Part shown: in pieces, positions 4,573 to 62,510 of the stretch
Layout of the letters: every line of letters starts with the position of its first letter
Numbering within the stretch: the first letter of the stretch is position 1
The notes under the pieces: model-generated
Told to the model about the DNA's origin: nothing
The model's database searches: none
The model's input: only the letters and a program-made list of their open reading frames with translations
Translations under genes and position numbers: made by a program
Assembly (NCBI GenBank): GCA_030220185.1
Contig: JASPKZ010004563.1
Location: 341,501 to 405,500 of the forward strand
DNA: 64,000 nucleotides
Origin: Diploptera punctata
Taxonomy: Eukaryota > Arthropoda > Insecta > Blattodea > Blaberidae
Direction: 5' to 3'

Positions 4573-5782
4573 TACTAGCTAATACCCGGCGTGCGCTGCT
4601 ACGCCTAAATAAATTGTGTTTTTATGTTTAATTGAATAAGTAAAGAGAAATATATATATTGCAATTATTTTTTCATACTCCGTGCTGATTATCCACCGTT
4701 ACCCGGGAAACTGCTTATCCCGATCTTCTTGGCATAAATGAGCTGAAAGATAAAGATGGTTATTGTCATTATCATAAGTAATGCCACGAGTGATTTCCAA
4801 ATTATCGATAAATTCACGACTCACGAAGTGAGGAGTGAATTTATCTAGAGAATTTGGAAATCAAGAGTGGCATTTGTTAGGACTATTTAACGAATAAAAT
4901 AAAGCTGTTTACTCACAAATCATTATTTAACTACAGTTATTTAAAAATATTTTTATATTTAAAGTAAACGGTGATGTTTGAAAACTAATGAGAAACGATA
5001 GGTAGCCTACGCTTCTACTGCTTCTTTTGTTTATCACTGCAACCAGATCATACTATTTATTGCCAAAGGAACGCAATATTGTAAGAATGCTCTCTAGTGG
5101 AGAAAAAATGAAACACATCAATCTGTATATTAATTCATTTTTGATGTCGTATACATTTAAGAAAGTGCAAACAGTGGTTTCTTTTTTTGGTGGTATAATC
5201 AATTGCTACAAATGTTGACATGTAAGCACTATTATATACAATCTGGTAGCCGTATTTGTTATAGGCTCAGTCACTGCAAAATAACGGTCAGACCTGTTCA
5301 GAATATTAAAAAGGAGGAGCTTTGCTTAATATATGATAATCCTAACGTTGATAATTATTTCGTGAAACACGTCTCTGATTGGTTGTAATACAGAAATCAT
5401 TGAAACGTGATTGGTCATTGACTCCCATTTGGGGCATGAGTTAAATAGTCAGTAAAATATATACATATGCTGTCGTGAACTTTTTTGTGGAATTTTTTGA
5501 GATATTCAATTCAGTGTACATTAATTTTGTGTACGTTATAGTTTAGGCAGCGTAAGCCATTTAAACGTCCAAAAATTTCCGAAAAACACGTTTTTCATTA
5601 CAAAGCGCAATTTTTAAGGGCGAAAGGATCGGAATTACAACTCTCTTATAGCCTAAAACCTTCCCGGGAAACTTCTGAACATTTTGCAAAAAGCCCCATC
5701 ACAATCGAATGAACGGTATGGCAGTGCATAAAGGACAAACAGACAGACAGACATACATACATTCGTTTTTACATATATAGAT
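4573..5782 (+). repeat. Repeat X copy, interrupted by a TC-element
   Basis: It starts CTAATACCCGGCG...TACGCCTAAATAAAT and ends ...CAGACAGACATACATACATTCG and a short A/T end. A second copy lies inverted at 25660-26205, sharing GATCTTCTTGGCAT, GGCAGCGTAAGCCATTT, AACACG and AAAATTTTGCAAAAAGC-like blocks. The second copy lacks the 4774-5448 insertion. No protein is evident. The class is undetermined; it could be a LINE 3' end or a non-autonomous element. Confidence 0.7.
4774..5448 (+). mobile_element. TC-element copy 1 (675 bp, non-autonomous)
   Basis: The element begins ATAAGTAATGCCACG and ends CATGAGTTAAATAG, with TC on both sides (4772-4773, 5449-5450). Its left 100 bp forms a long imperfect hairpin (GCCACGAGTGATTTCCAAATT against AATTTGGAAATCAAGAGTGGC, about 4782-4873). 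The uninterrupted repeat X copy at 25.7-26.2 kb shows the empty site. Other copies are at 24.6, 44.2 and 61.6 kb. No coding capacity is visible. Confidence 0.8.
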
Positions 5783-5822
5783 TAATCAAGTTGCAGATAA
5801 TTCTTGATTGTCATTATAATAT

Positions 5823-5906
5823 AATTTAACCTGGTAAAGTGGAAGAGAAGACCTTACGATCTTAAGTCCATCAGGTAAAATAAACTATTATTACTATTAT
5901 TATTAC
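5823..5906 (+). mobile_element. LINE-B 3' terminus with (ATT)n tail, split by SINE-1
   Basis: It reads TAATTTAACCTGGTAAAGTG, GAAGAGAAGACC and TTAAGTCCATCAGGTAAAAT, then the (ATT)n tail begins. SINE-1 at 5907 sits inside this tail and the (ATT)n resumes at 6256-6313. Confidence 0.7.
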
Positions 5907-6255
5907 GTCCACCGCTGTGGTCTCGAGGTAGCGTGCTGCCTTGTCACGCAGCGGGCCTGGGTTCGATCCCCGGTCGGGACAGTTTTTCTGGGTGAGGTTT
6001 TTATCGGGGTTTTTCCTCACCTGTAAAGACAAATGTCAGGAAAACTTTAAGGCCCAAACGGTCCCCGAAATCATATGGCCATCATCTTCCTTATCATTAT
6101 CATCATCCTTATCATTATCATCATCATCATCCTTCACCGGTGTGGAAAGCAACGGGAAGCTACCACACCTACAATTCCCTAGTAAAGCTGCAAGAATAGC
6201 ATGAAAATGCTATGATTGCAGTAAAGAACCTGCCCTCGGGCAGAATTACTATGAG
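5907..6255 (+). mobile_element. SINE-1, full-length
   Basis: It runs from GTCCACCGCTGTGGTCTCGA to the GGGCAGAATTACTATG end, with box B GGGTTCGATCCCC and the CACCGGTGTGGAAAGCAACG core. It is inserted in an (ATT)n tract, so its target duplication cannot be delimited. Confidence 0.92.
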
Positions 6256-6313
6256 ATTATTATTATTATTATTATTATTATTATTATTATTATTATTATT
6301 ATTATTATTATTA
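6256..6313 (+). repeat. (ATT)n microsatellite
   Basis: About 19 ATT units, probably the remainder of the LINE-B tail beyond the SINE-1 insertion. The open frames of polyasparagine here are artefacts. Confidence 0.9.
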
Positions 6314-60402: not shown

Positions 60403-60914
60403 ATATTAAACAGCTTTAATTCCAGCTGTATAAATATGAGCTCCTACACCTGTTACTTTGTAACTTAGATCCATTGGATGAACAGCTGTTCTTAATTTGA
60501 CGTAGATGGAACCCGCGACCTCGCGAATGCCGCTGTCAATTGGTTTATTTGTGATGTGAGACGCGTGCTGCCATCTGTTGTGGCACAGAATAACTTGATG
60601 ATCTCCTCTTAAGTGATATTGATCACGTTGCCCCCTTAATTCGTTATATCCGCATTTCTACACTCATCTTCTTTTTCGTGAGACATGTCACATTTAATTA
60701 GTCTTTTGATCTAAGTTTACATTTGTGGAATTTGACCATTAAAACAATGAATCTGCAAGTTGGTTTATCATCCATACTGTTTGTAGTTTTAAAAAATCCG
60801 TCACGCAAAATCTTCATCAACTAAACGAATTTCTCAGTCAAATTTAGAGTTTGATTTCCCAGGTTTAAGGGATGTATATTTATTTTGTAAATTAAATCTT
60901 ATATACACAGTATT
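60403..60914. other. No recognised feature
   Basis: No element or gene recognised. Confidence 0.35.
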
Positions 60915-61195
60915 TTCCACTGCTGGTGGTCTCGAGGTAGCTTGCTGCCTTGTCACGCAGTGGGCCCGGGGTCGATTCCCGCTCGGGACAAGCTTCCTGG
61001 GTGAGGTTTCTTCGGGTTTTCTACTCACCTATGGCTTTGAAGCTCAAAGGTCCCCGAACATCATCTGGCCATCATTATCATCATCCCACGGTGTGGAAAG
61101 CAATAGGAAGCTACCACACTAGTATAATTGCCTAGTAAAGCTGCAAAGCATAGCATAAAAATGTTATGATTGCAGTGAAGGAACACTATAAATAA
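60915..61195 (+). mobile_element. SINE-1, subtype b, shortened
   Basis: TCCACTGCTGGTGGTCTCGA, box-B-like GGGGTCGATTCCC, AAGCTTCCTGGGTGAGGTTT, and ACGGTGTGGAAAGCAATAGG. It lacks the ACAAATGTCAGG segment and part of the tail. Confidence 0.85.
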
Positions 61196-61440
61196 ATGCA
61201 CAGTATTATTACGACAAAATAAACATGGTAGTCGCTACAGCCACTTTTAAATTTTTGCTTTCAGCCAAACCCCCAATTTTTATGATCACAATTCGCTAAT
61301 TTTATCGTTCTATTTTGATTACATATACTTAGTTTCGTTATAAAAAAAAATTTGGCTGCTTTTGCGAGTTTTAAATTATCTCTTCGGATCATCCCTCCAC
61401 TCCTAATTGTGCGATATTGGTTAACGGACTCAACTGATTG
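61196..61440. other. Fragment related to the GCCGTTTAGG repeat, otherwise unassigned
   Basis: TTAGTTTCGTTATAAAAAAA and GAGTTTTAAATT resemble the 30.97-31.04 kb part of the diverged tandem repeat. Weak. Confidence 0.35.
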
Positions 61441-61464
61441 CTATAAATAAATAATTAAATCACT

Positions 61465-62510
61465 CACACTATAGAACACGTAGGTTCATGTCCGTGCGGA
61501 CATAAGCTCATACATCCCAATACTAAGCTAATGGTTTATAATCATTCTCATAAGTAATTCCACGAGTGATTTCCAATTTATCTAGAGAATTTGGAAATCA
61601 AGAGTGGCATTTGTTAGGACTATTTAACAAATAAAATTGAGCTGTTTACTCGCAAATCATTATTTAAATATAGTTATTTTAAAATATTTATATATTTAAA
61701 AGTAAACGGCGATGTTTGAAAACAAATGAGAAACGATTGGTACACTTCACTTGCTTCTTTTGTCCATCACTGCAGCCGGATCATATTATTTATTGCCAAA
61801 GGAACGCAATATTGTAAGAATGCACTCTAGTGGAGAAAAAAATGAAACACATCAAACTGTATATTAATTAATTTCTGATGTATGATGTAAATATGGCAAT
61901 TATATTTTTATGGAAAAAAATACATTTAAGAAAGTGCAAACAGTGGTTCTTTTTTTTTTTTTTTTTTTGTGGTATAATCAATTGCTACAAATGTTTTTAT
62001 ATTAACTCCTGCATGCGCTTTGTGTTGACATTCATGCACTATATATACAATCTGGTAGCCGTATTCCTTAGACAGTCACTGCAAAATAATGCTATGGCCT
62101 ATTCAGAATGTTAAAAAGGAGGTGCTTTCTTTATTATGATAAACTTTAGTTGGTAAATTCTAGGCGAAAAACGACTGTGATTAGTTGTAAATAAAAAAAA
62201 TCATTGAAACGTGATTGGTCATTGACTCCCATTTGGGGCATGAGTTAAGTAGTCTGTATAATCTACTTCACTTAAATCATGATTGTTATTCTCTCACCTC
62301 ATTCTTAGTCTGCCAACTGGGCGTTCCCTCCGGCTTTCCTACATGACATTTCCATGACCCTCTTTCAACCCCCATTCGTGGCTCATATCTTGCTCAACGC
62401 AGTCTACGAGACTTAACTGTTCTTATTACATTTGGTTTCCTAAAAAGAACTCACTGTTATGTATTCATCTCCATTCGCCTGTCTGTTCATCTCTCTTTCA
62501 ATTCATTGCC
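61465..62510 (-). mobile_element. LINE-A fragment split by a TC-element
   Basis: 61465-61549 is the 3' end (TAGGTTCATGTCCGTGCGGA, CATAAGCTCATACATC), and 62253-62510 continues TGTATAATCTACTTCACTTA back to the RDEQTGEWR region. The intact order is known from the 50.5-kb copy (ATCATTCTCTGTATAATCTA), which is the empty site. Confidence 0.85.
61550..62252 (+). mobile_element. TC-element copy 4 (703 bp)
   Basis: Starts ATAAGTAATTCCACGAG, ends CATGAGTTAAGTAG, TC on both sides (61548-61549, 62253-62254). The hairpin has lost its central part. A T run of about 18 lies at 61950-61968. Interior shared with copy 1 (TTATTGCCAAAGGAACGCAA, GAAACACATCAA). Confidence 0.8.

Follow-up and report, generated by a model that had tools for sequence, protein, structure and literature searches.

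In the available extracts of PMC3627910, PMC5148889 and PMC4067079, the Helitron2 plan comprises an asymmetric inverted repeat, one member of which lies at the 5′ end and the other just upstream of a 3′-terminal hairpin. Published distances of this inner member from the end, as far as the accounts seen give them, are 20–60 bp. Joined ends are reported, in the parts of the literature consulted, for Helraiser circles and FoHeli1, and another HUH group, the Replitrons, is described in the text available as carrying 5–11 bp direct terminal repeats. Here we describe a family of short elements from the insect Diploptera punctata, four copies of which lie in a 64,000-nucleotide stretch of contig JASPKZ010004563.1 (assembly GCA_030220185.1, positions 341,501–405,500, forward strand), hereafter the window. 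It is a very young, high-copy non-autonomous family, which is probably mobilised by a rolling circle of Helitron2 type, with a Rep (HUH)-helicase acting in trans.

An abundant TC-flanked family with an asymmetric inverted repeat

The ends are named left and right in the orientation of a preliminary description of the window, in which copies 1 and 4 are on the plus strand and copies 2 and 3 on the minus strand. Pattern searches were run on the window’s own assembly (3,123,318,691 bases in 10,165 contigs). The 29-mer of the left end, which includes the TC, gave 46,034 + 46,064 = 92,098 matches when at most 2 mismatches were allowed, its reversed control none. When the flank was left free in the pattern, TC stood directly before 54,818 of 57,830 exact left ends (94.8%) and directly after 48,401 of 52,286 exact right ends (92.6%). 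The preliminary description had put the boundary at TC on the basis of four copies; the genome-wide conservation upholds this boundary, and a non-autonomous family with unlike ends and a nearly fixed TC on both sides is borne out. The exact right-end pattern had no match in viral contigs.

Fifty fetched loci (L001–L050) and the window together supplied 59 distinct elements with both ends, ranging from 401 to 1,513 bp. These loci were the first listed with exact left ends and TC, which biases the sample to young copies and to left-side TC; left-end matches with five or more mismatches and left ends with no right end following were excluded. TC borders both sides in 54 of the 59 elements, the left side being partly selected by the search pattern. 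All five sampled 675-bp elements, including the one in the window, are identical, which indicates very recent movement of the family. Other sequence has lengthened some of the long copies, for example that of L027, where an open frame was taken by eye for a reverse transcriptase.

The left end is a palindrome, commonly 67 or 106 bp long, with TC and GA at the ends of its arms. Directly after it stands CTATTTAAC; the element closes with GTTAAATAG, nine bases of which CTATTTAAC is the reverse complement. This inverted repeat, missed by the preliminary description, is the best clue to the class of the family. Just inside the hairpin, copies 1, 2 and 4 repeat their other end in inverted form (GACTATTTAAC versus GTTAAATAGTC) with 0–1 mismatch. 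Across the sample, the 9-bp repeat CTATTTAAC, at 0 bp from the terminus where Helitron2 allows 0–2 bp, has both members exact in 44 of 59 elements and within one mismatch in 54. The best-matching partner lies 109 bp from the other end in 30 of the 59 and 70 bp from it in 11, the chance expectation being about 0.0025 per 200 bp. The extreme ends themselves, ATAAGTAAT and the reverse complement of CTATTTAAC, are unlike and form no terminal inverted repeats.

Folding supports the hairpin. The DNA fold of 4772–4883, which holds the copy 1 palindrome, reaches −30.7 kcal/mol (z −11.8, none of 200 shuffles being as good), and that of 61548–61620, for the copy 4 hairpin, gives z −5.0; in both copies folded, the partner repeat abuts the terminal palindrome. 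A hairpin at one end had been announced at about 90 bp; its presence is confirmed, its size is not, since copies 1 and 2 have about 106 bp and copies 3 and 4 a shorter form, of 67 bp in copy 4. The asymmetric inverted repeat and the terminal hairpin fit the Helitron2 plan when the element is reversed, so that the left end is probably the 3′ end and the right end (CTATTTAAC...) would be the true 5′ end. ‘Helitron-like or unclassified’, the choice left by the preliminary description, was thus the right shortlist, and the reversed layout matches Helitron2.

On the reverse strand, the internal junction reads GTTAAATAG-TC-CTAACAAATGCCAC and closely resembles the tandem junction GTTAAATAG-TC-ATAAGTAATGCCAC; a joined-end form, circular or tandem, may once have been copied into the hairpin. 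By eye, a 3 × 3 internal loop GAG/AGA is kept in the hairpin stem of many copies with either hairpin length (e.g. window 4785–4870). In the hairpin variant of L024 (about 1502–1640), the inner part resembles, also by eye, an inverted stretch of about 60 bases from the start of the usual left end, and the variant looks as if it came from fold-back synthesis.

Target motif, tandems and empty sites

Fifty-one insertion sites, 8 of the 59 elements being left aside, define the target motif TTATC-A-NNNN-AA (T 92%, T 76%, A 65%, T 100%, C 96%, A 65%, AA 86% and 90%), in which the TC values carry the sample bias. The motif approaches the palindrome TTATCANTATAA, whose centre lies immediately right of TC.

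The family also appears to insert at its own boundaries. Head-to-tail junctions with a single common TC were found as 3,246 exact 25-mers, or about 6.7% of the 48,401 exact right ends with TC, the two patterns being of unequal length. A rough expectation, on an assumed 55,000 copies, is 0.03% if any TC is used and 1.3% if insertion is restricted to sites fitting the motif that 40 of the 59 insertions fit. Within the sample, tandems occur at four loci (L016, L017, L019 and L048). The elements of L034 and L049 are flanked to the left and right by the hairpin-loop sequence of another copy, that of L045 on the right side alone, and the flanks of the L003 and L050 elements match the interior of other copies. 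Tandems and self-targeting fit a rule in which the target matches the edge of the element itself, and also a simple motif preference.

Empty sites were examined by aligning the joined flanks with relatives. With the window relatives, the host was continuous at the predicted point and the empty sites were precise. For the host of copy 1, the uninterrupted relative at 25688–26203 (−), repeat X, reads CC at the site, and relatives in L031 and L047 read TC and TT. The relative of the copy 3 host at 14274–14370 (−) reads TATTATC|AGAG, that is TC, with a 3-bp gap right beside the site. For copy 4, the relative at 50522–50884 (+) reads CATTCTC|TGTATAA, and that at 35375–35722 (−) reads CATTCCC|TGTATAA, i.e. 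CC, as does another at 14.6 kb. The three empty sites of the preliminary description are therefore confirmed in their precision, and the TC itself is not present in every relative. Likewise, its statement that removal of the element and one TC restores the host holds literally for copy 3 and, among the window relatives of copy 4, for one of three; elsewhere the difference is T versus C.

In the sample as a whole, 13 of the 59 elements had a listed gap-free relative at another locus. Two L017 elements were dropped from the count, their relative L018 being the same place; in 10 of the 11 others, TC stands at the site of the closest such relative, the exception being copy 4. One sampled empty site sits in sequence common to the Helitron loci L063 and L064. 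Longer duplications, for example of 8 bp, which the preliminary description had named as evidence against a TC boundary, were looked for in the empty sites examined and were not seen.

The four copies and their surroundings

The preliminary description had the four copies and their ends right: each is preceded and followed by TC in its own orientation, and the right-end 21-mer with at most 3 mismatches matches these four copies alone in the window (0 in 100 shuffles). The strands given here for the copies are those of the proposed Helitron2 orientation. Copy 1 (675 bp, 4774–5448, (−)) is flanked by TC at 4772–4773 and 5449–5450 and is identical to four sampled copies elsewhere. Its putative 3′-terminal palindrome, seen in the DNA fold, covers 4774–4880 (−). 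The inner member of the asymmetric inverted repeat, GACTATTTAAC, follows at 4881–4891 (+), and the outer member, GTTAAATAGTC, occupies the other terminus at 5440–5450 (+), its last TC being the flanking dinucleotide. Copy 2 (440 bp, 24594–25033, (+)) has its repeat members at 24916–24926 and 24592–24602. In copy 3 (1067 bp, 44233–45299, (+)), the inner member is decayed, and other repeat sequence enlarges the element at about its own positions 110–505. Copy 4 (703 bp, 61550–62252, (−)) carries its members at 61618–61628 and 62244–62254, with one mismatch.

A minisatellite with an 18-bp step and a unit like AAATATAGTCACACCTGT, detected by self-matches, extends over 18640–24461 and ends right beside copy 2. 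The Rfam scan of the window returned two tRNA matches and nothing else; they lie at 56912–56983 and 57157–57228, both (−), with about 170 bp between them.

Routes of mobilisation

According to the Helitron2-type model, the enzyme would nick at the 5′ end and displace one strand, displacement would stop at the hairpin behind the inner inverted repeat, and the ends would join as R-TC-L. Insertion would then take place into a target offering the same GA/TC dinucleotide within an AT-rich motif. Such an insertion would resemble a 2-bp duplication because target and element edge have GA/TC in common. The family shares with Helitron2/Helentron elements (HINE, DINE-1, FoHeli, Helitron-1N_CRe) unlike ends, an asymmetric inverted repeat whose second member lies upstream of the 3′ hairpin, lack of a longer target duplication and high copy number; joined ends or tandems are reported there as well. 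It differs from them in its target, GA/TC here and TT, TTTT or TNAT there, in a longer 3′ hairpin block and in a 5′ hairpin that is unsupported here. From Replitrons it is set apart by eye, nothing being repeated beyond TC.

The enzyme was sought among the 89 matches to PF14214, the Helitron-type Rep, in the own genome. Two groups with Rep-helicase (RepHel) proteins were tried as the partner and rejected, neither having the ends of the family. One is a canonical Helitron1 family, 5′-TCATAGCATTT..., ...GGTACGCTAG-3′ (TCATAG... / ...CTAG, the 3′ boundary by eye), represented by L065 (reverse strand, about 2.2–9.0 kb), L051–L053, L055–L058 and L060–L062; its copies are about 91–98% identical, and an upstream open frame contains three-residue-repeat (STPR) domains. 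The other, L063/L064, encodes DUF6570 upstream of Helitron_like_N and a PIF1 helicase domain. L063 and L064 are 96% identical over 5.8 kb and show nested inverted repeats near the 3′ end. With the L063 and L065 proteins as queries (E ≤ 1e-3), no RepHel match was obtained in the window or in L001–L050. Among extra pieces searched for the ends, the closest match was in L067, with 9 mismatches of 27, a level like that of chance.

Several observations weigh against Helitron2. The ends of the family are absent from the 14 distinct PF14214 loci examined, 12 at about 3.5 kb and three (one repeated) at about 10 kb, so the autonomous relative with these termini that the preliminary description envisaged was not found there. 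The eight commonest distances of the inner repeat are 65–149 bp, versus the published 20–60 bp. The 5′ hairpin expected for Helitron2, in which the 5′ repeat would take part, was not supported in the two copies folded (z +0.35 and +0.17). The target is GA/TC, neither TT nor T-rich, and the 5′ base is C or G rather than T. Both tandem pairs that were measured are 89% and 92% identical; as their members differ by 8–11%, they would be separate insertions at an existing boundary and not rolling-circle multimers, and a concatemer origin is rejected for these two pairs. Finally, among 28 gap-free relatives of the copy 4 host (window region 61050–62752), 19 read CC and one TC at the site; with relatives mostly CC, not every site bears out a target that must contain TC. 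With the partner missing and both a 5′ hairpin and a T-rich target looked for and not found, the family is not established as a member of Helitron2. The best assignment, probable but unproven, is to a Helitron2-like non-autonomous family that follows a new target rule; searches of the open-licence literature brought up no TC/GA-targeted Helitron2 family.

Alternatively, the family might represent a distinct rolling-circle-like group in which insertion requires a target matching the GA/TC edge of the element, by homology-matched strand exchange, a proposal that we hold tentatively. If true, it would account for a dinucleotide that is nearly fixed, for tandem junctions with a single TC and for the preferred use of own boundaries and the hairpin loop.

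An unlikely alternative is a cut-and-paste DDE transposon with degenerate terminal repeats and a strongly preferred 2-bp target duplication of TC. The empty sites are precise and mostly show a single TC, the apparent 2-bp duplication recalls ISL2EU and other DDE elements, a weak common TAATGCCAC / TCATGCCCC is visible by eye near both ends, and the target motif TTATCANTATAA is nearly palindromic. However, the centre of this near-palindrome lies beside TC rather than on it, TC, being non-palindromic, fixes the orientation, the target is asymmetric, and the extreme termini have no inverted repeats. Moreover, the short duplications in the descriptions available are AT (ISL2EU), TA, or 2–4 bp long (CMC), and none of them is given as TC.

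A canonical Helitron1 read in the left-to-right orientation, 5′-TC...ATAG-3′ inserted between A and TC with the second TC belonging to the host, seems quite unlikely. Fifty-four of the 59 sampled elements do start with TC and end with TAG, as the 94.8% of TC at the 57,830 left ends also suggests, and A precedes about two thirds of the sites. The head-to-tail joins are compatible with it too, the tandem junction TAG|TC being like the Helraiser circle junctions in the accounts seen. A Helitron1 family of the L065 type (5′-TCATAG..., ...CTAG-3′), with copies up to 98% identical, moreover exists in the same genome. But its termini are different, and the inverted repeat is present here. The A of an A|T target is found before only 35,961 of 54,818 left-end TCs (65.6%) and so is not required, in contrast to Helraiser, for which the source consulted in part counts 46 non-AT among 1,751 insertions. 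Instead of the CTRR-3′ of Helitron1, with its hairpin 10–12 nt upstream, 53 of the 59 elements end in ATAG, and the right ends of copies 1 and 4, folded on the plus strand, form no significant hairpin (z +0.5, +0.54 and +0.40).

An improbable last candidate is an element circularised by a serine or tyrosine recombinase and recombining at the common TC: a near-fixed non-palindromic dinucleotide, R-TC-L junctions and own-boundary insertion are as expected from a 2-bp crossover, but the resolvase domain PF00239 has no match in the genome (its control was positive in 9 of 14 genomes), the tyrosine recombinase domain PF00589 has ten weak ones (G000 C7854, C3812, C5771 and others, some with open frames), with the ends absent over 2.8 and 2.5 kb at the two of these loci that were fetched, and tyrosine recombinase sites have, in the descriptions at hand, 6–8 bp spacers. 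The DDE and recombinase routes carry lower weight than a Helitron2-type rolling circle.

Reading the Helitron2-like layout from the other strand accounts for features that seemed unclassifiable in the forward reading. It would extend the target range of the Helitron2 type from T-rich sites to GA/TC, and if no RepHel partner exists, an undescribed mechanism would be indicated. The genome offers natural insertions of this recently active, rolling-circle-like family in the tens of thousands, governed by a sharp target rule, and they suffice for testing the interplay of ends, hairpin and target.

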